Source: Erigeron canadensis (Eukaryota > Streptophyta > Magnoliopsida > Asterales > Asteraceae). From it: a stretch of DNA of 64,000 nucleotides. Location: positions 1-64,000 of the forward strand of contig NC_057769.1 in assembly GCF_010389155.1 (NCBI RefSeq), in the 5' to 3' direction. The notes under the pieces are model-generated. The model saw nothing but the letters and a program-made list of their open reading frames with translations, was not told the DNA's origin and made no database searches. A program made the translations under genes and the position numbers. Of this stretch, positions 42,006 to 58,081 are shown piece by piece (the stretch's first letter is position 1; each line of letters opens with the position of its first letter).

Positions 42006-42274
42006 TGATGTGACTAATTTTATACCCATTATCGACATCCTTATTGGCCTATTTCTTATGCGTTTTAAGTATATTTTGTATGCATTTGGTGCGTTTATGG
42101 TGTTTGTTAGTGTTTACAGGCTCTAAACAGGTTACGCGTTCATTTGGTGCAATTACGAAGGGTTATTGGCCTAGAAGTTGATTTGAATGATTGAGAGTTG
42201 ATTTTTAAGTGGAAAAGACGGCGAATCTTGGCTTGTATTCGAGATCGAAAGAAGTTTGTCTTACACAAGCTATG

Positions 42275-42541
42275 ACTGCGCCGCAGTGGAGGGAAGCTAT
42301 GCCCACTGCGCCGCAGCCAAATCCCACAGAATGTTCTTGAACTAACCCCACTGCGTCGCAGGGGGGATGGCGATGAAGAGACTGCGCCGCAGTCAAGGAA
42401 GCAAGAAACCAAGACGTGGAATCAGACTACGCCGCAGTGGAGGGTTCGTAAGCCTACTGCGCCGCAGTCACCTTGAAGTCAAAATCAAAGCTACCTCACT
42501 ACGCTGCAGTGAGGGGAAGCACAACCCCACTGCGCCGTAGT
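42275..42541. repeat. Palindromic array ACTGCGCCGCAGT (LTR copy)
   Basis: Eight copies of a 13-mer, arms ACTGCG and CGCAGT around a central C, at 42275, 42305, 42350, 42381, 42426, 42456, 42498 and 42529. Several carry single changes such as ACTACG or GTCGCAG, consistent with C-to-T decay. The array ends 54 bases before the TATA box. Confidence 0.92.
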
Positions 42542-42594
42542 GGGTGCACGGGAGTCAAGGGTTTTGGACGTTTGCTGCATCAGATTTGGAAGAG

Positions 42595-42602
42595 TATAAA
42601 TA
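42595..42602 (+). promoter_or_regulatory. TATA box of the Gypsy LTR
   Basis: TATAAATA downstream of the palindromic array. The same box is near 57026 in the 3' LTR. Confidence 0.7.
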
Positions 42603-43656
42603 TGAAACAAACCCTAATTTCATTCGTTATCAAAATTCTTTTTAGGAGCTGTTCTACAAGGGTTCTTCAATCTCCAATCAAGATAATTTCTTAGGCGGAT
42701 TCATTGAAGATTCATGAGCACCCATCTAGATCGTATCTACTTACTGTCTTGCAATTTATTTTTCATCAAACGATTGGTACATCATGTTTCTTTTCTATTT
42801 TAATTATTATTGTGGAATGATCATGAGTGACTAAACGTTAAATCATCCACCTTGATGAAACTAGACGGATAATGTGATTGCAATATTTTTAATTCAAAAG
42901 AGTTTATTTAATTATCGTTGTTCTGTGATCTTGATGACTTTAATTCTTTTTATTAATTAATTTTGATATTGGTTGCATATGATTCTTCGTTGATGGTACC
43001 AGTTGAATGTGTATGTGATTTTAAAACGGTTACTTGTCTATGAGTAATTATCACTAGTTCATGGTATGATAGTGAATATCATTTTAAGAAAAGATTAACT
43101 TTGTCAACGTGATTGATATCGGTTGGTGGTACCACATTATTATCATTTAGGTTCAATTGATAATTTGATAGTCAATAAAACTGATTGTTGGAAGAATTGT
43201 CTTTGCTTTGGCGGTACCGGCTTGGGTAATTTAACTAGCAGTTAGGTGATTCGATATTTTGTTCACGGTTGGTGGTACCACGTGAGCACCTTAATCTTGT
43301 CACGATTATCTTTAAACTCTAGAGAATTTGTTTTTAATTAAATGCAATCACATTTGAAGTCGAGGGAAGTCAAGGTGGATGACTTTTAATTATATTGTCT
43401 GAAGTTCTTTACAAATTTATGCAATTATTTTGCAAACCAATTTTACTTTAATTGTCAAGAGGATTTTCAAAGCAACACCCGTTTTCCAAACCATTTCATA
43501 AGCAACTAGTCATTTCCAATCCCTGAGAACGAACTCAGACTTATCTCTTAACTATATTACAAACGATCAGGTCCACTGCCCGTGAGTGCGTAGTGGTGAG
43601 TTTTTAGGTAGTTTAAGTTTTATAAATTTAAAGTTCGATTTTGCACATCAAGTTTT

Positions 43657-43674
43657 TGGCGCCGCTGCCGGGGA
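43657..43674 (+). promoter_or_regulatory. Gypsy primer-binding site
   Basis: TGGCGCCGCTGCCGGGGA lies 6 bases after the LTR. It corresponds to the tRNA-Asp-type primer site described for Athila elements. Confidence 0.8.
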
Positions 43675-43787
43675 TTCTGTGCCGATTTAGTTGTTTATTT
43701 AGTGGTTTGATCCTTCCTCACGCGTGAGGAAGTTATTTGCTTTATTAGTTTAGTTCGTTTTCTTGGATTAACAGGTGCATTTAACGT

Positions 43788-45877
43788 GTGGTGTTAGCTG
43801 TGTTTTGCAGGATTGTTTCATATTTGATGATTTTGCGTTCTTCGGGGCGACCTCTTTTTAGTCCATTGAAAACTCCACCAAGACGCAGGATCAACTTTTC
43901 AGCACCACCAGATTCAGACGAAGAAGGCTTCTACCTCAAGGAAATCTTTAATCTTGCACTTGTCAAAGACGAAATGGGTGACAATCCACCACCGAGAGAC
44001 CCAAATGACATCCGGTATGGTGACCGAACCCGAACTATTCCTACGGCTCGTGGTTCCGTCATTAGACCACCAGGTGTTGATCAAAGTTTCAACTTGAAGC
44101 CAAACCATCTTAAAAGCAATGAAGAGCAAAAATTTGATGGTAAGAAGAAATGGGACCCTTATAAGCATTTAGAGAGGTTTGAGAAGTTAACACGGCTTTA
44201 TCAATATGGCCAAAACCAAATGAATGCCGTCAAACTTGAAACCTTTCCTATTACCCTCACCGGAGATGCCGAGGATTTGTTCAATGATCTCCCCGAGAAT
44301 TCGATTACTACTTGGGATCAACTTAAAGAAGCTTTCATTGGTGAGTTTATTCAGTTAGAACTCAAAGGCAATTGGAGAACTTGATAAGGTCCTTTGTGCA
44401 AGAAGATGGGGAAGATGTTGTTGATGCATGGATCCGATTCAAGGAGATATTGAGAAATTGTCCGGGACATGAGTTGACTAAGGAGAAGTATGCCGAATTA
44501 TTCTTTGATGGTTTGAATAAGGGTTCTAAAAGAGAAATGGGGTATGCTTTCGGTGGAAGTTTTAGCAAGATCACTCCAAATGAAGGTTATGACATTTTGG
44601 AGCGTATGGTGAAAGATAATGCGGCCATGGATAATAAAAGATTTTTGAAGAATGAGAGTCGATTTAAGCAAAGTAAAGTTGCAAGAGCCGATAGTAGTAA
44701 CAACTCTATTGTCATTGATGAGATTCAAGCTTTGTCTGCACGTATGGATAAGGGATTTGCAACTCAAGAGTCTCGTTTTGGTTATCTGGAAAGAGATGTT
44801 AAGGTTCTTGCCGATGGGTGTGATCACTGTGGAGAGACACACTATTCTGAAGAGTGTCTAAACCGGGGACCTGAAGATGTGAATTTTGTGCAGAATCAAC
44901 AAGGAGGTTTTCAGAGAAACACCGGTTTTCATAACCGGTCATCAGGTAACAATTCTTATAACTCTTCTTTTCATGCTAATACTTCTCGTTTTTCTGGTAA
45001 CAAGTGGCAAAGGAACAATTATCAAAGTCAGCCACAGCAGCAGGAGACTCAACAAAGCCAAGGATCGGGTTCTTCTTCTTCAACTACCGATCCTAATGCC
45101 GAGTTGAGAGAAATGATGAAGCAGGTGATGAGCAATCAGATGGAGACGAACACAAGTATCCAGAATATAAGGGAGGATACTAAGCAGTTGAGTGAGAGGC
45201 TGGATAGGATTAATGGTAAAGTGGAGATGAATGCCAAAAATCATGATATCAATTTCAAGGATCTTGAGAGTAGGATGGCTGCTATCACTAAGCCCCCCGA
45301 GGATGCTTTTCCTAGTAACACTCAGCAGAATTCGAAGCAGAATCAAGGGCCTAAAAATGGTAAGAAGTACACTCCACCGCCTGTTCCTCAGGAGCAAGCG
45401 AAAGCCATTACTACTCGTACAGGTAGATCCTATGACCCTCCTCCTAATCCTAATGATATTGTTTCAGATGTGCAGGATACAGGATATGATGGAGATGCTG
45501 ATGTTGATGAGGAAGTTGTGATGGAAGATAGACCGACTGTGAAGACTCCGGTTATTCCACCGAAACCGGCTGAGACACCCGAGGCTAAGCCATATAAGCC
45601 TAAGGTTCCATTTCCACAGCGGTTCAGGAAAGCTAAGCTAAAGGAACAGTATGATAAGTTTGTCAATATGATTAAAAATGTTCACATTAATGTTCCTTTA
45701 GTTGATTTGATCCAGGGAATGCCAAACTATGCCAAGTTTATTAAGGAACTTGTGACGGATAAAGGAAGGTTGGATAAGGTGAATGCTGCTTATTTGAATG
45801 TCGAGTGTTCTGCTATCTTGCAAAACCAACAGATTCCACCTAAGCTTGAGGAACTTGTAAGGCGCTTGCCGATTTAG
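43788..45877 (+). pseudogene. Gypsy gag, frameshifted
   Basis: Gag runs in one frame to 44384 and continues in another from about 44372 (ENLIRSFVQEDGEDV), so a small indel lies near 44355-44372. Blocks: FDGKKKWDPYKHLERFEKL and LKEAFIGEF (retrotransposon gag domain), then ILRNCPGHELTKEKYAELFF, a zinc-knuckle-like CDHCGETHYSEEC near 44818-44856, a Gln/Ser-rich linker and a TPPPVPQEQAKAITTRTGRS segment. It ends at a stop inside the start of protease, where several residues before the active site appear deleted. Confidence 0.85.
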
Positions 45878-46413
45878 GTGCTAGTATAAACTTGATGCCT
45901 TACTCGGTTTGGAGTAAGTTGGCTTCCGGAATTTTGAGACCTACTCGCATGAGTATTCGTTTAGCTGACCATTCTTTTTAATATCCCATTGGGATTGCTG
46001 AAAACATGACTGTCCAAGTAGGTCATATTGTTTTTCTTGTTGATTTTGTGATCCTCGAAATGGAGGAAGATACTAAGGTAACCTTGATTTTAGGTAGACC
46101 ATTCCTTAACACCGCGGATGCTATAATCCGGGTGAAAGATAAGGAAATTTCTTTGGGTGTGGGTACAGATAGGATTGTGTTTAATGTTGAAAGATCTATT
46201 AAGCATTCTTACTCTAATGATGAGTCTTGTTTCAGGATTGATGTCATTAATGATGCTTTGGATCAAAAATTTGAAGAAATGATGGAGACTGAGGTTGATG
46301 AAGAGCTCACCTGTTTAGGAGCTAGTGATATTGATGATGATGAGTTATTTGCAGAGGTTATGGCATTGAGTTTGGATGAGAGACCTCCAGAGGATGAGAG
46401 CTTTGAAAAGTAG
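45866..46413 (+). pseudogene. Gypsy aspartic protease region
   Basis: The active-site block ADLGASINLMP lies at about 45866-45898, then a TAA at 45979-45981 where homologs have an amino acid, then TLILGRPFLNTADA and an acidic tail. This is frame 1 relative to gag and RT, so at least one shift separates them on each side. Confidence 0.8.
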
Positions 46414-46427
46414 TTGCTGATGGAAGC

Positions 46428-47807
46428 TCAAGGGTACCAAATTCCGTTAAGCCATTGCCTGCCCACTTGGAGTATTCTTACTTGGCAGGTAAATCCTCTC
46501 TACCAGTTGTTATCTCGTCCTCACTTTCGAGTGACGAGAAAAATCTTCTTTTGGCCGTGCTCAAAGCTCATAAGCGGGCTTTTGCTTGGAAGACTACCGA
46601 CATTCCAGGTATTAGTCCTGATTTTTGCATGCATAAAATTGATTTTGTTGATGATGTGAAGCCCGTTGTCCAGCGACAAAGGAGGCTTAATCCAAACATG
46701 AAAGAGGTTGTAAAAAAAAAAAGTAATTAAGTTGTTAGATGCATGGATCATTTTCCCGATTGCAGATAGTTCATGGGTAAGTCCCGTCCACTGTGTGCCC
46801 AAAAGGGGGGCATGACGGTAATTGAAAATGAAAACAATGAACTTTTGGCTACTAGAACGGTTACGGGTTGGCGGGTTTGTACTACATTCACATGCCCCTT
46901 TGGTACTTTTGCCTACCGGCGAATGCCTTTCGGCTTGTGTAATGCCCCGGGCACCTTCCAAAGGTGCATGATAGCTATTTTCCAGGACATGCTTGAAACC
47001 TCAATGGAGGTTTTCATGGATGATTTCTCGGTATTTGGGGACTCTTTTCGAACTTGCTTGCATAATTTAGATAGTATGTTGACACGGTGTGAAAGGGCAC
47101 GCCTTGTCTTGAATTGGGAGAAGTGTCACTTCATGGTGACCGAGGGGATTGTTCTAGGTCATAAAATGTCTAGGGCCGGTATAGAAGTTGATAGGGCTAA
47201 GATTGATGTGACAGCCAAATTACCCCCGCCTTCCAATGTGAAAGGGGTTCGAAGTTTTCTTGGTCATGCCGGTTTCTACCGTAGATTCATTAAGGATTTT
47301 TCTAAGATTACTCGTACGATGACCCACTTGTTGGAGAAGGACGTTACTTTTGTTTTTGATGAATCTTGTTTAAGTGCTTTTCAAGTGTTGAAAGAAAAGT
47401 TGACCAACTCTCCCGTCATGGTTAGTCCGGATTGGAGTTTGCCTTTTGAGTTGATGTGCGATGCAAGTGACTATGTTGTTGGAGCCGTGCTTGGGCAAAG
47501 GGATGATAAGAATTTCAAGCCTATTTACTATGCTAGTAAAACCTTGAATACCGCCCAGCAAAATTACACTACTACAGAGAAGGAGTTGCTTGCGGTAGTC
47601 TTTGCATTTGATAAGTTTAGGTCATATCTAGTATTAAGTAAAACTGTTGTTTTCACTGACCATTCTGATTTGAAGTATTTGTTTTCTAAGCAAGATGCAA
47701 AGCCTAGACTTATTCGATGGATTTTGTTGTTGCAAGAGTTTGATATCGAAATCAAAGATAAGAAAGGTGCCGAGAATTTAGCAGCTGATCACTTGAGCCG
47801 GTTGTAG
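46428..47807 (+). pseudogene. Gypsy reverse transcriptase-RNase H, deleted
   Basis: The RT N-terminus (LLAVLKAHKRAFAWKTTDIPG) stops at 46730 in an A-rich run that looks like an insertion, and resumes from 46773. WRVCT is followed directly by [17 protein letters not shown], so about 70 residues, including the first catalytic Asp block, are missing in frame. The FMDDFSVFG active site and RNase H ([41 protein letters not shown]) remain. A TAG at 47805-47807 ends the frame after HLSRL. Confidence 0.88.
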
Positions 47808-49190
47808 GACCCAAACCGGGAGGAGTTTCAAGATGGGGAGATTAAGGATAACTTCCCCGATGAATACTTAAATGTCATTTCTAACTCTAATGAAGGACCT
47901 TGGTTTGCTGATATTGCTAATTATTTGGTTGCAGGTGAAATACCGAATGATTTCCCGGGTCAACAGAAGAAGAAGCTAATATCAGATGCTAAGCACTATT
48001 TTTGGGATAGCCCATATTTGTTTCGTACTTGTGCAGATGGTATGGTGAGAAGATGTGTCGCGGGAGCTAAAACTAGGGAGATATTGGATGCTTGTCATTA
48101 CGGGCCAACTGGAGGTCACTATGGTCCTTCGGTTACAGGTAAAAAGGTGTTTGATGCAGGTTTCTATTGGCCTACAATTTTCAAGGAGGCTCAAACGTTG
48201 GTCGAAACCAATGACATTTGCCAAAGACAAGGAAGCATCACTAGACGGGATGAAATGCCACAGCAAGGAATTCAGGTATGTGAAGTATTTGATATTTGGG
48301 GCATAGACTTCATGGGACCATTCCCACCGTCTAACAAGTTTCAGTGTATTCTAGTTGCTGTTGACTACGTGTCTAAGTGGGCCGAAGCCAAGGCTTTGCC
48401 TACAAACGACGCGAGGGTAGTCATTAAGTTTTTGAAACAGTTGTTTAGTAGATTTAGTTATCCTAGAGCCTTAATTAGTGACCGTGGTACACATTTTGCT
48501 AATCATCAACTAGATAAGGTTCTTAAAAGGTATGGTGTGTGTCATTATTTTTCAACTTCTTATCACCCACAGACCAGTGGTCAAGTGGAGAACACCAACC
48601 GGGCATTAAAAAGAATTTTGGAAAAAACAGTCGGGGATAACCCCAAGGTTTGGTCGAAAAAGCTAGATGACGCCTTGTGGGCATTTAGGACCGCCTTTAA
48701 GACGCCGATTGGCACCACGCCGTACCGGTTGCTTTACGGTAAGACTTGTCATTTACCGGTTGAGTTAGAGCATAAGGCGTATTGGGCGTTGAGAAATTTG
48801 AACCTGGATATGATGGAGGCCGGTGAACTTAGGTTGTTGCAACTTCATGAGCTCGATGAGCTTAGGTTAGGTGCATATGAAAACTCAAGAATTTATAAAG
48901 AGAAAACCAAAGTTTACCATGACAAGAGGATCCGTAGAAAGAAGTTTAAGGTTGGAGCAAAAGTCTTGTTATTTTTGTCAAAATTTAAAATTAAACAACC
49001 CAAATTGACTTCTAGATGGATAGGGCCTTTTGTGATTAAGCATGTTTATCCGTCCGGCTATGTTGAGCTGTTTAAAAGAAATGGAGACGGTTCTTTTATT
49101 GTGAATGGCCACAGGTTGAAACTTTATTTGGAAGAAGACCAAGAGGAGGGGATGGTTGAAGAAATCCCCATTTTTGATTCTGAAACTTAA
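47808..49190 (+). pseudogene. Gypsy integrase
   Basis: The open frame from 47925 has the zinc-binding HHCC region with a missing first Cys (NDIC where CxxC is expected), then a core with all three acidic residues in context: [18 protein letters not shown] and GQVENTNR. The C-terminal [19 protein letters not shown] module follows. The stop at 47805 separates it from RT, so the polyprotein is broken, although the integrase core is intact. Confidence 0.88.
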
Positions 49191-49403
49191 ACAATGGTCG
49201 AGTCTAGCTAACGACTCATAAATAAATTAAGCGCTTCTCGGGAGGCAACCCGTGTTTAATTTTGTTTTGTCAAATTTGATTTTCATTTTGTTAGATAGTT
49301 TTACTTTGTTTTGTCAAGAATGTGCAGGTTCAAATTCGGTGTGAAGCGAAGTGAGGTAAGTTCGTAGCAAAAACGAAAAAAATTTTTTTTGGAAAAGTCC
49401 CCC

Positions 49404-49597
49404 ACTACGCCGTAGTGCGGGTGGTGATCTTGACTGCGCCGCAGTCCAATTACTCGTCCAGTATTGACATTCACCCCACTGCGCCGCAGTGGGGGTGTGA
49501 AGAGCTGACTGCGCCGCAGTCCGAATGCTCGGCACCCAAATGCATTAGTCCTCACTGCGCCGCAGTGAGGGTACGTCTTTGCCCACTGCGCCGCAGT
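49404..49597. repeat. Palindromic array, internal cluster 1
   Basis: Six copies of the ACTGCGCCGCAGT core just after integrase, most with extended arms, for example GACTGCG/CGCAGTC, TCACTGCG/CGCAGTGA and CCACTGCG/CGCAGTGG. Confidence 0.9.
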
Positions 49598-50174
49598 GAG
49601 CAAGTTGACTGGTCATCAGGGGAGTGGGGTTTAAAGTAAAAAAAAAAGGAAAGACTGAATAGATTTTTCACCACAAAAATTCAAACCCTCTTATCTTTTT
49701 TTCTAAAAAGGAAAACGCAAAAACCTCTTCAAGAACCCCCTTTGCATCCGAAAACTATCCTCTAATCCACAAAAATCTTGCACTTTTCTTCTCTATCTTC
49801 TAGATTCTCATCTTTTCATACCTATCATGTAGTAAGATTTCTTGACTTATTTCTTTTTCTTTTCTTTAATTTTTGTTTTTCAATTTTTAGGTTGTAATTG
49901 TTAAATTGTTTGGTGGGTTTCGTTAGCTAAGGGGTATAGATGCTAATGTGATGTTTAATTTCACGAATCTAACACTTGTTCATCCGGATTTGAGTCAAAA
50001 TCAAACCTAGGGTTTCGAAAAATTAGGGCTTTTTGATGAACAAGTGTGTGGGAGGTTAATGGAAGAATTTGTAGTGTTAAATTGCTAAAAGACTGCTATT
50101 TAGTTGATTTGTTGCACCCCCTTAATCTGGAAATTCATGATGAACACCAAGAACATGCCCAGAAAAACTGTCCC

Positions 50175-50370
50175 ACTTCGCTGCAGTGGTGAAGGGTCTT
50201 GCTCACTGCGCCGTAGTGGGTGGCTGGTGACCCGCACGTGCCTAGAACCTCACTGCGCCGCAGTGAGGGTTACCTCAAACCACTGCGCCGCAGTGGGAAG
50301 CCACGTTCCAGTTTTGCTTTTGCCTCACTGCCCCGCAGTGAGGGGGTGTTGATGCCCACTGCGCCGCAGT
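50175..50370. repeat. Palindromic array, internal cluster 2
   Basis: Six copies of the core, one with 10-base arms (CCTCACTGCG and CGCAGTGAGG). It lies about 130 bases ahead of the extra ORF. Confidence 0.9.
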
Positions 50371-50500
50371 GGGGCACTTTCCTGCCTAAAATTTTATTTG
50401 TTTTCAATATGGTTCCCGGTTTGTATTCCTCGTGTAACATGTTTGTTTGTCTTATTGTTTGTGATTATAGGATGCTACTGGAGCTGACAAGAGGAAGCAG

Positions 50501-52427
50501 ATGGAAGTAGGTCAAGGTAGCGGGACCGCTGAAGTCCCTGCTAAGACGACTAGGCAAACAATGGAACCACCAGCTCTTACTTTTTGGCCTGGGAGTTTAA
50601 ATGAAAGGCATACCTGGCTGCAATTTGAAGGGGTAAGACAACCCCATGAGAACATCTATTTAAATAAGTTGTTCTCACTATACATGCAGGTTGTCTACCC
50701 GCCGAGATATCTTCATCATACGAGGGCTCGTTTGTTTGGGGTTGAAGCTGATGTGAATAGATGGTTTAGTATTCAGGTGCCCGTAGGTGATAGGGTAGTC
50801 CATGTTGATATGTGGCAAGAAATTTTTCTGAATAGGGAACCAGTGTACCATGAGATGTGCTTGGAATTCTATTCAACTCTGAAACTATCTAAGGAGTTGA
50901 ACAAGGTTAAAGATATTTTCGAGGAAAGATGTGTTTCATTTTACTGCGGGGGAACACAACGGAAGATATTGATTGCTCAATTTGGTTATTATATTGGTAT
51001 GTACTCACAGGACCAGTTGAGAAACAATGAATTCATGCAAGTGTTAAGAAGAGGATTGTATGTGAAGCAGGATCTTGGAGATAATGAGTCCATTGCACAA
51101 TATTGGACTCGAATTTCAGGAGGAGAAGCCTGGCTGACTGGTGGTTCAAGTACTGTTTCTAAAAATCAAGAATGTCAGGTTGAGGTTATTGCATCGGATG
51201 ATTGTTACATTTCTGGTCCAGCGGTCTACCCATTGGGATAAGGCATATCAGTTGGATCTCTGGTTGATGAAGTTGTTTAGTGAGGGGGCGCTGGGTAGGT
51301 TTGCTTTAGCTTCCATGGTTGTACTCGACAGGATGTGCAACCACAGTGATTCTATGTTGTGGCAAGCCCAGTATACAGGGACGGAGTTTGTGAGGTGACT
51401 ATCAGCGGCGTATGGATCAGGAGGTGACATGGTTAGGGTCGCAGCTGGCCCATACAAACTACACTCTTGATTATTACCAGCCGATGTGGCAAGCCCAGTA
51501 TACAGGGATGGAGTTTGTGAGGCCTGACCCAATTCCACCCTTCAGCCCACCACCTATTCGTGTTCCACCTTATCGACAGGATGGCGGTTCTTTCTTCTTC
51601 ACGCCTTCACAGATGACTCCATGGCCCCATGACTTGGAAGGATCTCCCCGAGGGCCGGTTCAGTTTGGTCGATATACAGGTGGTGATGCTGGAATGTCCT
51701 CGTCTATGCCTAGTTTCTTTGCAGGTACCAGCTCTGGGTTCGCTGATTTTGCTGGAGGCTCGGGAGGATTTGCTGCTGGTGGTTCTGGACAGGCAGATGA
51801 TCAGCTGGGAGGCGGCTATGTAGAAGCAATTTCTGAGAGGCTTTTATTGTCCGTCGCAATGCAATTCTATGGGCTGATTATGAAGAAGAAAAGATGTCTT
51901 CAAGGTCGTGATGACGTCATCATCACTTCGTGATGATGTCAGCACGAGGCAGCAGTTCGTGTGAAGATGTGCGCAGCCCACGAACGAGATGGAAGCTCAA
52001 CCCATGTAGGAGCCTATATATACTAGAATTAGGTTACAATTGTAGGTTAACGATCTTAGTTGCAACAGATTTCGTTCACAGCGCACGGGGTAGAGATCTA
52101 TACCCCGTGCCAGTCAGATGTATACTGATTTGGTGATTGTAATCTTATGATTAATGATATTCACGAGTTTTACATCTTTTCTTATCTCTTATTCTTCATT
52201 TAATTCGTGTTTATATGTCCATTAATTATACAGAAACCTCAAAGTTGATTATGAATGGATTCCGCACTTTCATAGTCGAATTGGTCACGATTTGAACGGT
52301 CCGACGTGTTTCAACGGGCTATGGCGGTTCACGTTCAGGAGGCACGCCAGAGCAGGTCACTAGCTGGGTGGATGATCTCTTTGACCCACCTGGTGCTCCA
52401 TATGGCTATCATGGGCAGCAGCAGTGA
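50501..52427 (+). pseudogene. Extra 3' ORF of the Athila-like element
   Basis: It begins MEVGQGSGTAEVPAK and contains WLQFEGVRQPHENIYLNKL and IAQFGYYIGMYSQDQLRNNE, resembling the ORF of unknown function found in Athila-type elements (Pfam ATHILA ORF-1-like, by memory). A shift near 51215 moves it to the frame with THWDKAYQLDLWLMKLF, and a stop follows at 51396-51398. A third segment from 51412 has a Gly/Ser/Phe-rich C-terminus. It is split at 51819 by a solo Copia LTR, and the frame resumes cleanly at 52322 and ends at 52427. No transmembrane envelope-like region was seen. Confidence 0.65.
51819..52316 (+). mobile_element. Solo Copia LTR nested in Gypsy ORF
   Basis: 498 bases starting TGTAGAAGCAATTTCTG, flanked by GGCTA at 51814-51818 and 52317-52321. 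It resembles the Copia LTRs at 17432 and 27022 in its start, its TGACGTCA palindrome (TGATGACGTCATCA at 51909-51922), its TATATATA box near 52015 and its GATTCCGCACT phrase near the end. Like them it does not end in CA. Confidence 0.85.
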
Positions 52428-53081
52428 TGACAGTGATGATGATGACCTCCATCCGGTACCGTGGGATGGGGTCATATGTTGATTGATATTCTCTCATTTT
52501 TTTTTGGTAGATGGATGACTGTACTTGATACATTATTTCTTATCTTTTCTCTTTATTTCTGTTGGTATCCACACTACGGGGTGATGAAACATTGTATTTG
52601 GTTATTTTTCTTTTTCTTTTGGTTTGTTGCATGAACAGTAGGTATAAGTATTGTTTGGAATTCGTTACGGTTTGTTTTGATGCAATATGAGCAGGTTGTT
52701 ACATTTGATAGCTATAGCGCAACTCAAGTGTGGGGGGAACCCCTTGGATTCTCTTCTCATCTATTATATGGCATCAGTGTGTTGATGGTGTGATGGTGTG
52801 CGTATGCTGGCAGTAAGTTCAGCGCCATATTTGTTATTGCTATGCTTGATGCACACACGACTCTCGCACCTTCCGTTTTGGTACAAGTTGTTTATCCCGC
52901 TAACCAAAGTATCCTTCCTACTTCGGAAGTGCCATTTTTGACACGGGGTCGATAACTTGTTTCAAAACGGAATGTGTCCTTATTCCGGTATGTGCTCTTA
53001 TTTTTCTATGTCGCTTACCCTATTTACTTTTGTTTGACCGAATATGGACATTGAGGGCATTGTCCATCTTAAGTGTGGGGG
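52428..53081 (+). mobile_element. Gypsy 3' internal region, part 1
   Basis: Non-coding. Two purine-rich phrases, AAGTGTGGGGGGAA near 52729 and AAGTGTGGGGGGTGG near 53071, resemble polypurine tracts. Confidence 0.55.
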
Positions 53082-53086
53082 GTGGC

Positions 53087-54541
53087 TGATGTGTGAAAAT
53101 CTAGTTAAATTAAAATCCTTAAAAATACTCCGAATCGAATACTACACACAATCGGGTAGTAGACCCGTTCGTATGCAATATAGATTAAAGTAAGTAAAGG
53201 TTCGTTCCACGGAGACTACAAAGAGCTAGCGAGTTTTAAGTAGTTAGAAAGATTTTGGTTTTTAAAGACACTACGTCATCTTGATTTTATATTAAAAAGT
53301 TAGTTGATTGAAAGAGTTAGAAATTCCTAAGAATTTATCGAAAGGAAAATTGTTTTATATCAAATAGGATGAGAAGATCATCCACTTTCGACTCCGTGAT
53401 ACACTAACTTAGGTTGCATTTAAATTGAGACCCAATCCAAATATGTTGACAAGATAACCTAGACTCGAACAAAGAAACTCACTTGGTGGCCGACAAGCTT
53501 ATAACTCTATTCAAACCCATTAACTAACTAGTTCAATCCTAGAAAATTGGCACTACTTGAAACTAATGTGACACCATCAACTATTAAAATCCAATTAACA
53601 AATCGTTTCCTATTACTATGCCGTTTACTATCACTCCATGAACTAGCACCAATTTACTTATAGACAAATAATTGAAATCAAACTTATATACTTCCGACAC
53701 AATCGACAAAGCATGTAAGAATCACCAACAAGCACAATAATATAGAACAAGAAAACGATTCATTAAGATTACGACATAACATTAATAAAATCAACTTGGA
53801 TTAAAAATATGCAACCATGGTCAATGTATTACTTCATCTCAGTGGATGACGAATTATTTAGCTACTCATAATCATAAACAAAGCACAAAGAGTAAAAGTA
53901 TAAGAGAACATATTGTACCAATGTGTAGAAAACAAGTAGAAGCTAAGAAAATCGATAACTGAATGCCTTGAAGCTCACGAACAACCCTTAGACCTTGATG
54001 GACGAAAAAGCTACTGAGTATTGCCCCAAAGAACCCTAAAATTGACTAGAGGTGATTGTATATCGAATGGGAGGGTTTTGGTCTTGTATTTATAGTGAAA
54101 AATCAAAAAACCTTCAGCCGACCTATTTTATGCGCCGCACATAAGTCCCATGCACCGCACAAACTCGCAGTTTCCATATTTCAGACTTTCCATGCCCGAT
54201 ATGCGCCGCATGACTCCTGTGTGCGCCGCACAGGAACTTTTGCTAAATTCCCTGACCAAAATTAGGTACTTCTGTGCGCCGCATACCACTTCTATGCGCC
54301 GCATAAGCTTCCATACTTCACGAAACTTGTATTTTTCAACTCGTCTTCACTCGTACTCGTCCAAGAATCATCCTAATGCATCTTTTAACCTTCCAAATGC
54401 CATTTCTAACCAATGTACCTGTCTAAGCCTGCAATTACTAACAATAGCATCAAAGCATCGAATATACATATAATTTGCACATTATTAAGCTTAAACCGAC
54501 TTATAAACGATATGGGAATATGCATATAAATGGACATATCA
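53087..54541 (-). mobile_element. Solo Gypsy LTR, family C
   Basis: 1455 bases from TGATGTGTGAAAATC to GGACATATCA, flanked by GTGGC at 53082-53086 and 54542-54546. Orientation is minus: the TATA box (complement of about 54086-54094) lies just after the palindromic array on that strand, and the order of conserved phrases matches the other Gypsy LTRs in reverse. Confidence 0.88.
54129..54305. repeat. Palindromic array TGCGCCGCA (family C LTR)
   Basis: Six copies of the core TGCGCCGCA in 177 bases, with paired outer bases: TATGCG/CGCATA and TGTGCG/CGCACA around a central C. It sits about 35 bases upstream of the TATA box on the minus strand. Confidence 0.85.
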
Positions 54542-54546
54542 GTGGC

Positions 54547-56440
54547 AAATAGGTTTAAGCAGGTTTAAGCTACCGGGTTTATCACTTTTGTTGTTTTGCC
54601 ATTAAGATTTCTATCAGTTTTGTTGATGTGTCCCTCTCGTAGGCCTTTGGATTCTATCTAGGGGTATGAGTTTCTATTTTGAGCTCTTAACTATGAGGTG
54701 CATGTTTAAAATTGGTGCTATCAATTTGGCGGAATAATAGAAGTTGATATGATTTTTAAGACTTGGGTTGAACTTGTCCTTGTGGTAAATTGCTTTTGAC
54801 ACTTAATTGATTACTTATTAAGCAATTTTACTACAAAATGTTTCCTTGACAAAAATTTTTAATTGGCGAAGTGTGTTCTGAACGGTTGTTTGGCTAGTCC
54901 TTTGGGATTGATAACATTACTTGCATACTCATATATATATCCAAAACACCCAATTGTGAGATTTCATCATTTCATATATAGTGTGTTAGGTGACGGTTTT
55001 GGTTTGTTTGCTTCGTAAATACGTCCCTCTCTTAGGCTCTTGGATTTAATCAGGAGTAAGGGTTTTCATTTTGATGCCCTGCACTAGGATGTGCGTGTTT
55101 GAGGTATTTTTAAGCCATTTCCGAGTTCTTCTCTTGATAAGAGTATACCGGTGATGTGTTGATTCTAGAACTTGGCCTGGTGATCGTGACGAGTACATTG
55201 GATGACGAATTGGCATTTAGGTTTAACCATATTTTTTCTTTCTTTCTTTTCACTTTTCTTTTGTATATCCATATCCCTATTATACAACCTTATACATATA
55301 CTTGTCTATATTCACACAATTTTCTTTCCTTGTATACCTTAGCAATATACACACATATACATCACTATAACTTTACCTTTTCCATTGTATAAATCCACCT
55401 ACTCTTGTAAACTTTACCTAATTATACCGATAGTCTAATCTGGGGGACCATTGATTGTCATTGGTTTGTTTGGATGGTTTGGGAGAGTTTCAGTGGGTTA
55501 ATTTGTGGAATATTCTTGTCTATGAGAATATGTGAATGGGTTAAGTTATTGAAGATTGTCTTGGATTGTTCAAACAAAGGAAATGAAGTGTTATAGGCAT
55601 GTTTATCATTGTAAGAGGGTATCTACTAGTAGAGTAAAAATGGTTCAAAAAGAATAAAAAGAATTGAAAAACTGAAAAATTAAAAAAGAAAAGAAAGAAC
55701 TTGGGCTACTAGTAGGCATTTCTTATGTTTAAATGTCTAGAAAGTTTGTTGTAACATTATTATGGAAGATTTGGTTGATTGTAAGTTGTTTGAAGTTGAT
55801 ACACCACAATGGTGTCGGGCTTGCTTGGTACTTTGGAGGTGTTCGCGGGATAGCATCTTATGGGTTAGTGGTTTGTTGGCAATCAATGGTATGAGTTGAT
55901 TAGACTCTTTTGTTCATATTTAATATAACTTATACTATCAATTCCTACCTTTCACTTTTAACCTATATAGTTCCCATACTTCATTGTATATATCCATATA
56001 TGCTTAGCCTTAGTTTAACTATACAACACCCTTAATGCCTATTTTGACGATGTACTTGATCCTTGCGCCTTAATGGTGGAGTGACGATCATGGTTCAAGC
56101 CTATGGTAAAAGAGTATACATCACGACTGAGCTATGAGTGATTCTTCATATATTCACCCTGAAAGTAAGATTGTTGGAGTAGAATGATATTGATAGGATC
56201 GTTTGTTTTCATTTATGCTTAGTTGATTATCGTGGCTTGCGGATTTTTCAGGTATTGTCAAACATTTCGAGTTTTCATTTAAGATTAAAACTGCTTCACC
56301 CGCTTTCTGTCATTTGACATGCTTGGTGTTGCTTCTTTTTGATACTTGTCACTTGTTTTGATAATTTGATTGTCAAGGATTACTTTTTCTTAAATTCCGG
56401 ATTTGCTTGAGGACAAGCAATGCTCAAGTGTGGCATGATT
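54547..56440 (+). mobile_element. Gypsy 3' internal region, part 2
   Basis: Non-coding. Two related phrases built on TTAGGCTCTTGGAT and GATGTGCGTG occur near 54640 and 55030, a diverged direct repeat. It ends with GAGGACAAGCAATGCTCAAG and AAGTGTGG before the 3' LTR. Confidence 0.6.
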
Positions 56441-58081
56441 TGATGTGACTAATTTATACCCATTACCCACATCCTTATTGGCCTATTTCTTATGCGTTTT
56501 AAGTATATTTTGTATGCATTTGGCGCGTTTATGGTGTTTGTTAGTGTTTACAGGCTCTAAATAGGTTACGCGTTCATTTGGTGCAATTACGAAGGGTTAT
56601 TGGCCTAGAAGTTGATTTGAATGATTGAGAGTTGATTTAAGTGGAAAAGACGGCGAAGCTCGGCTTGTATTCGAGATCGAAAGAAGTTTGTCTTACACAA
56701 GCTATGACTGCGCCGCAGTAGAGGGAGGCTATGCCTACTGCGCCGCAGCCAAATCCCACGGAATGTTCTTGAACTAACCCCACTGCGTCGCAGTGGGGAT
56801 GGCGATGAAGAGACTGCGCCGCAGTCAAGGAAGCAAGAAACCAAGGCGTGGAATCAGACTACGCCGCAGTGAAGGGTTCGTAAGCACACTGCGCCGCAGT
56901 CACCTTGAAGTCAAAGTCAAAGCTACCTCACTGCGCCGCAGTAAGGGGAAGCAAAACCCCACTGCGCCGTAGTGGGTGCACGGGAGTCAAGGGTTTTGGA
57001 CGTTTGCTGCATCAGATTTGGAAGAGTATAAATATGAAACAAACCCTAATTTCATTCGTTATCAAAATTCTTTCTAGGAGCTGTTCTACAAGGGTTCTTC
57101 AATCTCCAATCAAGATAATTTCTTAGGCGGATTCATTGAAGATTCATGAGCACCCATCTAGATCGTATCTACTTACTGTCTTGCAATTTATTTTTCATCA
57201 AACGATTGGTACATCATATTTCTTTTCTATTTTAATTATTATTGTGGAATGATCATGAGTAGCTAAACGTTTAATCATCCACCTTGATGAAACTAGACGG
57301 ATAATGTGATTACAATATTTTTAATTCAAAAGAGTTTATTTAATTATCGTTGTTCTGTGATCTTGATGACTTTAATTCTTTTTATTAATTAATTTTGATA
57401 TTGGTTGCATATGATTCTTCGTTGGTGGTACCAGTTGAATGTGTATGTGATTTTAAAACGGTTACTTGTCTATGAGTAATTGTCACTAGTTCATGGTATG
57501 ATAGTGAATATCATTTTAAGAAAAGATTAATTTTGTCAACGTGATTGATATCGGTTGGTGGTACCACATTATTGTCACTTAGGTTCAATTAATAATTTGA
57601 TAGTCAATAAAACTGATTGTTGGAAGAATTGTCTTTGCTTTGGCGGTACCGGCTTGGGTAATTTAACTAGCAGTTAGGTGATTCGATATTTTGTTCACGG
57701 TTGGTGGTATCACGTGAGCACCTTAATCTTGTCACGATTATCTTTAAACTCTAGAGAATTTGTTCTTAATTAAATGCAATCACATTTGAAGTCGAGGGAA
57801 GTCAAGGTGGACGACTTTTAATTATATTGTCTGAAGTTCTTTACAAATTTATGCAATTATTTTGCAAACCAATTTTACTTTAATTGTCAAGAGGATTTTC
57901 AAAGCAACACCCGTTTTCCAAACCATTTCATAAGCAACTAGTCATTTCCAATCCCTGAGAACGAACTCAGACTTATCTCTTAACTATAATACAAACGATC
58001 GGGTCCACTGCCCGTGAGTGCGTAGTAGTGAGTTTTTAGGTAGTTTAAGTTTATAAATTTAAAGCTCGATTTTGCACATCA
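56441..58081 (+). repeat. Gypsy family A 3' LTR
   Basis: 1641 bases, pairing with 42006-43650. The palindromic array runs 56706-56973 with eight copies. Differences between the two LTRs include several C/T and G/A changes inside CpG sites of the palindromes. Confidence 0.92.

Follow-up and report, generated by a model that had tools for sequence, protein, structure and literature searches.

Palindrome arrays at the locus

The stretch analysed here, called the window below, comprises the first 64,000 nucleotides (64 kb) of contig NC_057769.1 of Erigeron canadensis (assembly GCF_010389155.1, forward strand). It carries a long terminal repeat (LTR) retrotransposon of the Gypsy superfamily, in whose LTRs and interior a short palindrome, ACTGCGNCGCAGT, recurs in four arrays. 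We take the element to be tentatively Athila-like, the Pfam matches behind this label being weak. Its parts are as follows.

42006..43650, plus strand: 5' LTR of the Athila-like Gypsy element, TG start read from the sequence
42275..42541, plus strand: 5' LTR palindrome array, eight units with spacings of 30, 45, 31, 45, 30, 42 and 31 bp; unit centres at 42281, 42311, 42356, 42387, 42432, 42462, 42504 and 42535
42595..42601, plus strand: TATAAAT box of the 5' LTR, 60 bp past the centre of the last unit
43785..49190, plus strand: gag-pol stretches with gag, reverse transcriptase (RT)/RNase H and integrase (Pfam Retrotrans_gag, RVT_1, RT_RNaseH, rve, Integrase_H2C2)
49404..49597, plus strand: internal array 1, six units (29, 45, 30, 46, 31), between integrase and ORF3
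50175..50370, plus strand: internal array 2, six units (30, 47, 30, 45, 31), in the ORF3 leader
50471..51933, plus strand: ORF3 region, with open stretches at 50471-51241 and 51394-51933
56441..58081, plus strand: 3' LTR of the same element, from alignment to the 5' LTR
56707..56973, plus strand: 3' LTR array, eight units with the spacings of the 5' LTR; TATAAAT at 57027-57033

When up to two mismatches were allowed, ACTGCGNCGCAGT matched 28 times in the 64 kb, all listed on the plus strand, against a chance expectation of 0.44 (sd 0.62, largest 2; 100 dinucleotide shuffles). The 28 copies, spread over the four intervals as eight, six, six and eight, agree exactly in counts and outer coordinates with an earlier reading of this DNA (the original prediction), and the arm pairs named there were also present, with 10-base arms at 49484, 49560, 50258 and 56788. 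Its figure of eight 13-mers per LTR is correct with mismatches allowed and not for exact copies, since 15 of the 28 units are exact, with C at the centre; one more has T there. By eye, the spacers of the 30-bp pairs often read GGG...CCC, which lengthens the arms (49484-49560 in the window; arrays such as L131 and L138 elsewhere in the genome), and some contain an additional small near-palindrome, GAGNACTC, in mid-spacer.

The two LTRs are 97.4% identical (42006..43650 against 56440-58081, 1646 aligned columns). The gag-pol region is broken up by stops and frame changes, and RT-RNase H precedes integrase, which is the Ty3/gypsy order. Internal array 2 possibly lies in an intron, a splice acceptor being placed by eye at about 50470. 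Among relatives, P0001 gave a weak match to the ATHILA family PF03078 (E 0.17), and the one of class D (locus L200; classes below) matched PF20167 at E 0.001, below the cut-off.

Arrays across the genome

The assignment of the palindromes to one Gypsy element proved too narrow: the arrays occur genome-wide, in several LTR-retrotransposon lineages, and the finding is both real and broader than first noted. Exact 13-mer pairs 10-40 bp apart numbered 2528 (1174+1354) in the 426-Mb genome, across which a control with the reversed pattern found none; core pairs 9-13 bp apart numbered 366+431. For the geometry we sampled 40 regions in the first 10 Mb of contig C1, taken from the first-listed exact pairs and thus with at least one exact pair each, and added the four arrays of the window, which gave 50 arrays and 240 spacings between units of the window's kind (class A). 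Three narrow bands held 231 of the 240 spacings (137 of 29-31 bp, 81 of 44-47 and 13 of 41-42), and the other nine fell outside them.

After masking of the palindromes, the arrays formed seven groups at more than 100 bits (20, 15, 6, 4, 2, 2 and 1 members), with weaker links between FAM0 and FAM4, FAM2 and FAM6, and FAM0 and FAM3, the last on the opposite strand; we therefore count FAM1, FAM2/FAM6, FAM0/FAM3/FAM4 and FAM5 as independent settings. A further link, between FAM1 and FAM4, was dropped as a sign of array kinship when it was traced to sequence adjoining a neighbouring array. FAM1 is the LTR of the window element, FAM2 and FAM6 are internal arrays before ORF3, FAM5 is a family that we call X, and FAM0, FAM3 and FAM4 are LTRs of a different Gypsy lineage. 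The FAM0 element has two zinc knuckles and an RT 40% identical to that of the window; we provisionally call it chromovirus- or Tekay-like, although no chromodomain was matched in it.

Within FAM1 (14 of the 15 arrays, one diverged array omitted) identity was 92% in the palindromes, 65% in the spacers, 78% upstream and 87% downstream; selection for exact pairs raises the first of these figures and leaves the contrast between spacers and flanks unaffected. The rigid spacing, together with palindromes that are conserved although the spacers between them have diverged, supports an interpretation as arrays of binding sites.

Outside this genome, the exact class A pair gave no matches in viral_contigs and genome_contigs, and the window RT found no relative as a query in IMG/VR. 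A loose core pattern matched at least 120 stretches in IMG/VR.

Position and orientation at the promoter

In LTRs the arrays end shortly before either a TATA box or an A-rich tract; others lie between integrase and ORF3. In FAM1 the TATA box follows the last unit by 60-62 bp in 13 of 15 arrays, and none was found in the other two. The corresponding distances in further families of the Athila-like type (classes defined below) are 62 bp in A', 43 in D and 41 in both B and E, with 37 bp in C when measured after a degenerate unit. On the sense strand, FAM0 units have G at the centre, and a TATA-like word stands 10-17 bp past the last centre in 11 of 20 arrays; no such word was found in the remaining nine, most of which have an A-rich tract. 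In one FAM0 locus, L143, inspection by eye placed the end of the LTR and the primer-binding site about 60-70 bp further on.

The four FAM3 arrays occupy a place like that of FAM0, ahead of an A-rich tract, with C at the centre on the sense strand, which in L151 was recognised by gag and by the primer-binding site. Between these related LTRs the array has therefore been inverted at the same promoter site. The units within one array are co-oriented: the whole genome had 45 pairs with inverted centres, compared with 2528 direct pairs of class A, although the inverted pattern, unlike the direct one, required the core only. In family B (L209, C1:9742400-9746400, compared with L199) the LTR array has G at the centre and the internal arrays C on the sense strand, so that orientation differs even inside one element.

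Arm classes and their match between LTR and interior

The pieces around 20 places with core pairs, and larger contexts of these, yielded further Athila-like families with the same core, TGC-N3-GCA, and with other arms and spacings. Loci were put by eye into the following classes.

Class B: RTGCG..CGCAY, spacing 20/52 bp
Class C: TTGCG..CGCAA, spacing 18/32/52/76 (two overlapping loci both counted)
Class D: GCTGCG..CGCAGC, spacing 18-20/32
Class E: GGTGCG..CGCACC, spacing 21-22/31 and others

In the pieces compared, the integrases of families B-E are 67-79% identical to that of the window element and their ORF3 products 26-34%. Internal arrays form two clusters each in B, C and D and one cluster of three units in E, in every case between integrase and ORF3. 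One class E-like locus, L202, showed no coding match, and its context matched neither the window's proteins nor those of L143.

The arms of the LTR array match those of the internal arrays in six of the six Athila-like families examined. For A' (L149/L208), B (L199/L209), D (L200/L207) and E (L203/L206) the match was predicted before the downstream LTRs were read; the LTRs of A and C (L171/L174) had been read earlier. The match rests on two LTR units in family B and on two exact ones in family C, one of the five units of the A' LTR has a deviant left outer arm, and membership of LTR and internal arrays in one element was deduced from strand and distance. LTR and internal arrays agree in class, yet they fall into separate groups once the palindromes are masked.

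A copy of class B lies nested within the window element, in the following parts.

53087..54541, minus strand: LTR-like copy of class B, from an Athila-like family other than that of the window element; 94-95% identical to L178, in two pieces
54129..54305, minus strand: class B array, six units (20, 53, 20, 51, 20), centres at 54299, 54279, 54226, 54206, 54155 and 54135
54094-54088, minus strand: TATAAAT of the nested copy, 41 bp beyond the array

Its units have the core TGCGCCGCA, with a mismatch in one of the six, and arms with A/G on the left and T/C on the right.

The seven loci of family X are alike in their LTR-like flanks, with 73-80% identity over 62-146 bp. Homologous flanks on both sides of the array were found in two comparisons: L140 (class A) with L202 (class E), where identity was 67% and 66%, and L140 with L152 (both A); for the remaining loci one flank was read. 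It seems that in this family arrays were swapped as wholes at a single site, arms, spacing and orientation included. We noted L140 and L152 as class A, L180 as D, L182 as C-like, L198 with ATGCG, and L194 and L202 as E, in either orientation.

Tandem arrays are common in LTRs, and tandem 75-bp duplications are present in some of the arrays described here (L131). Non-functional duplication and homogenisation of a 75-bp minisatellite could be considered as their origin. Such a process would have to account for palindromes and spacings that persist while the spacers differ, for the recurrence of such arrays, with other arms and spacings, at the promoters of unrelated elements, and for an agreement in class between LTR and internal arrays whose masked sequences do not group. 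We regard it as very unlikely.

Half-sites and base pairing

If the palindromes were maintained as RNA hairpins, with transcripts that must fold for the sake of the element or as substrates for small RNAs, the two arms should change together. In class B they do not. Among 43 distinct units the bases at +-5 were AT in 11, AC in 11, GT in 11 and GC in 10 (Fisher p 1.0): the left base is always a purine and the right always a pyrimidine, and the two sides vary independently, which points to half-site logic and not to pairing. In the class D LTR (L207, C1:22286500-22293000, minus strand) the centre is GCA in seven of seven units, so that +-1 never pairs. In classes C and D, pairing at +-5 to +-9 stayed within z 1.9 of shuffling throughout. 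Single changes in the class A core (n=84) comprised 40 of the A-C type, 35 of the G-T type and 9 others, with no preference for wobble pairs, and the two double changes in this core, both paired, compare with 1.7 expected. From the independence in class B, the mismatch in class D and the lack of a wobble excess, the symmetry would thus mostly reflect two half-sites that are read alike.

Two observations touch on these counts. G-T and A-C changes, 75 of the 84 single core changes, are those that C-to-T decay of methylated copies yields, and the internal units of class D in L200 have GCC at the centre in 10 of 12 cases, unlike the GCA of the L207 LTR.

Hairpins do find some support. RNA of an internal array folds strongly (z -5.1), small RNAs have been described at maize Sirevirus palindromes (Bousios 2016, cited in PMC10760457), and the outer arms of class A show the modest pairing excess detailed below. 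The LTR arrays, however, lie upstream of TATA and occur in either orientation. Given this inversion, the independence in class B, the mismatch in class D and the absence of a wobble preference, we set the RNA hairpin aside as the principal explanation and consider it unlikely. The original prediction had offered a protein-dimer site or a hairpin as alternatives for a maintained dyad symmetry. That symmetry is well supported; the dimer site is the better of the two options, and the hairpin is disfavoured by class B, class D and the orientation of the arrays.

Several results nevertheless weigh against a reading of the palindromes as pairs of independent half-sites. For class A, 290 units were collapsed to 87 homology groups and compared with shuffles that ignore the family tree; the largest group, of 59 units joined by single linkage, may mix positions. 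Pairing exceeded the shuffled value at +-7 (68 against 60.2, p 0.005), +-8 (51 against 42.4, p 0.015) and +-9 (49 against 38.3, p 0.003). In class E, too, +-5 pairs above shuffles (z 3.1, 20 units), as does +-8 (z 2.4). Outer-arm double changes within the class A groups numbered 97, of which 50 were paired, more than the third or so expected at random. Half-site independence alone fails to predict these excesses in classes A and E. The centre is C in 280 of 290 class A units, and the units of one array are co-oriented, neither of which a perfectly symmetric dimer would need. In addition, the sampling by exact class A pairs inflates the conservation of the core, and the assignment to classes B-E was visual.

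Other counts bear on the size of the class A excess. At +-10 pairing was 30 against 23.4 (p 0.07), and with the test restricted to the 28 groups of at least two units only +-9 fell below 0.05. The 97 double changes themselves compare with 42 expected. Among FAM1 LTR units (n=113), pairing at +-7 was 47% against 45% in shuffles, with z 1.7 at +-8, 3.5 at +-9 and 2.3 at +-10. The earlier claim of complementary changes beyond the core is borne out in part, as a modest excess over shuffles in class A; at +-7 the LTR family of the window element stays close to the shuffled value. The extra pairing in classes A and E may come from shared ancestry.

A putative binding protein

The observed sites, with their spacing and symmetry, their promoter-proximal position in both orientations and the match of arms between LTR and interior, are in our view best explained as arrays of symmetric sites for a sequence-specific DNA-binding protein that is dimeric or binds in symmetric pairs. 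We give this reading a probability of about 0.75. Each site would comprise two half-sites around TGC-N3-GCA, the arm bases setting the class, and the sites would be used mostly in close pairs at a spacing specific to the class. Their role would be that of promoter-proximal operators or enhancers, with the LTR arrays serving the LTR promoter and those in the interior a second promoter or leader for ORF3. From the arrangement of the sites we infer that a protein binds, that it does so as a dimer, and that binding raises transcription or counters silencing.

The binder has close to an even chance of belonging to a host transcription factor family, with a different paralogue for each retrotransposon family; the core would then be shared across unrelated lineages because the same host protein family is used. 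GCGGC, on one strand within the core, may be a core of the LOB-domain type, which makes LOB-domain factors a candidate. Consistent with a host factor, core and geometry recur in the LTRs of Athila-like elements, of chromovirus-like ones (FAM0, FAM3, FAM4) and of family X, and near-identical palindromes are found in distant monocot and eudicot Sireviruses (PMC2829016). The paralogues would, however, have to explain a joint change of arms and spacing, in LTR and interior alike, between elements whose integrases are still 90-94% identical.

Somewhat less probable, and put forward tentatively, is the ORF3 product itself. Like the VANC proteins of VANDAL transposons, it would recognise the arrays of its own family and raise transcription or remove silencing, and elements without ORF3 would hijack the regulator. 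The Athila-like ORF3 might then be the retrotransposon counterpart of VANC, co-evolving with the arrays in its own LTR and leader, with the chromovirus-like and family X arrays as hijackers; we hold this, too, as a possibility short of an even chance. The arrays stand ahead of ORF3 in six of six Athila-like families, and ORF3 diverges far faster than integrase, coinciding with the change of arms: integrase and ORF3 identities are 94% and 52% between C and D, and 90% and 49% between B and E (integrase over 112-128 residues). VANC targets are likewise motif arrays that vary between related transposons, and VANC6 acts on the unrelated AT9TSD1 (PMC5735166). The extra 3' open reading frame of sunflower Athila is nuclear by prediction (PMC11728184), and whether such extra frames shape Athila methylation has been called open (PMC12844716).

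Against the ORF3 product stands the lack of a convincing match to a DNA-binding domain: the window ORF3 matched no Pfam family at E 1e-3, and that of L203 gave a match below the cut-off to a nucleic-acid-binding family (E 0.002). A kinship with DUF1985, raised by a short pattern seen by eye, was not supported, as hhalign, comparing eight ORF3 rows with eight of the 18 sequences in the same genome that match DUF1985, returned a probability of 0.4% (E 0.15), and a Pfam scan of nine ORF3 pieces at E up to 10 found no DUF1985. A structure model of ORF3 from two sequences reached a mean pLDDT of 32.5. A and A' are both class A at 50% ORF3 identity. Finally, the integrase and ORF3 trees do not conflict, so the arms could belong with the element as a whole just as well as with ORF3. 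One relative was returned when ORF3 served as the query of a protein search.

The coupling of arms between LTR and interior makes the identity of the binder testable. If the binding-site reading is correct, the genome of this plant holds a set of element-specific recognition codes, in which one symmetric core is combined with interchangeable arms and spacings; the codes would agree inside a retrotransposon family, and different lineages would have them in common. It would then become testable how LTR retrotransposons secure expression under silencing, what role the extra open reading frame of Athila has, and whether unrelated elements steal the regulator; the Sirevirus palindrome story would extend to the Gypsy superfamily.

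Comparison with known systems

The remark that no named element of this kind exists was mistaken as to kind, since the RM boxes of Sireviruses are palindromic and stand before the LTR TATA box and before ENV (PMC2829016). Bousios et al. (2010) describe 8-32 copies, clustered in the upper LTR half not far ahead of TATA, with extra copies upstream of ENV in ENV-bearing elements and with diverged flanks, and term the motif a Sirevirus-specific feature (PMC2829016). The window element resembles these in its eight units per LTR with TATA 60 bp after the last, and in its two arrays between integrase and ORF3, a placement shared by the arrays of its relatives. It differs in its core, TGC-N3-GCA as against CGG-CCG (except in Tnd-1), and in its host, Ty3/gypsy as against Ty1/copia (PMC2829016). 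The class match between LTR and interior, the fixed paired spacing and the sharing among Gypsy lineages are reported here and not in the parts of the RM-box paper used for this comparison (PMC2829016). In maize, Sirevirus LTR palindromes form clusters in the cis-regulatory part of the LTR and attract small RNAs (Bousios 2016, cited in PMC10760457), and one is shared with Helitrons (PMC10760457). They have been interpreted through RNA structure and small RNAs, whereas pairing is mostly unmaintained in the arrays studied here.

VANDAL elements are DNA transposons of the Mutator-like type. They resemble the present case in their arrays of family-specific motifs, in noncoding or intronic sequence beside a fast-evolving extra gene, and in the sharing of targets by an unrelated transposable element (PMC5735166). 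For VANC, binding and demethylation were shown by Hosaka et al. (2017; PMC5735166). Unlike that system, ORF3 here shows no DUF1985 relationship by profile comparison, and the word palindrome is absent from the main text of PMC5735166.

Judged by titles and the beginnings of abstracts, a literature search found no account of such arrays in Gypsy elements among the entries listed, and a search with the core as a word found, by title, no plant-transposon paper. Tnt1 and Tto1, which are Copia elements, have boxes in few copies that are bound by host stress factors. These U3 boxes, which are repeated or symmetric and activate the LTR promoter, resemble the present arrays. Symmetry is noted for box I of Tnt1 (PMC2829016).

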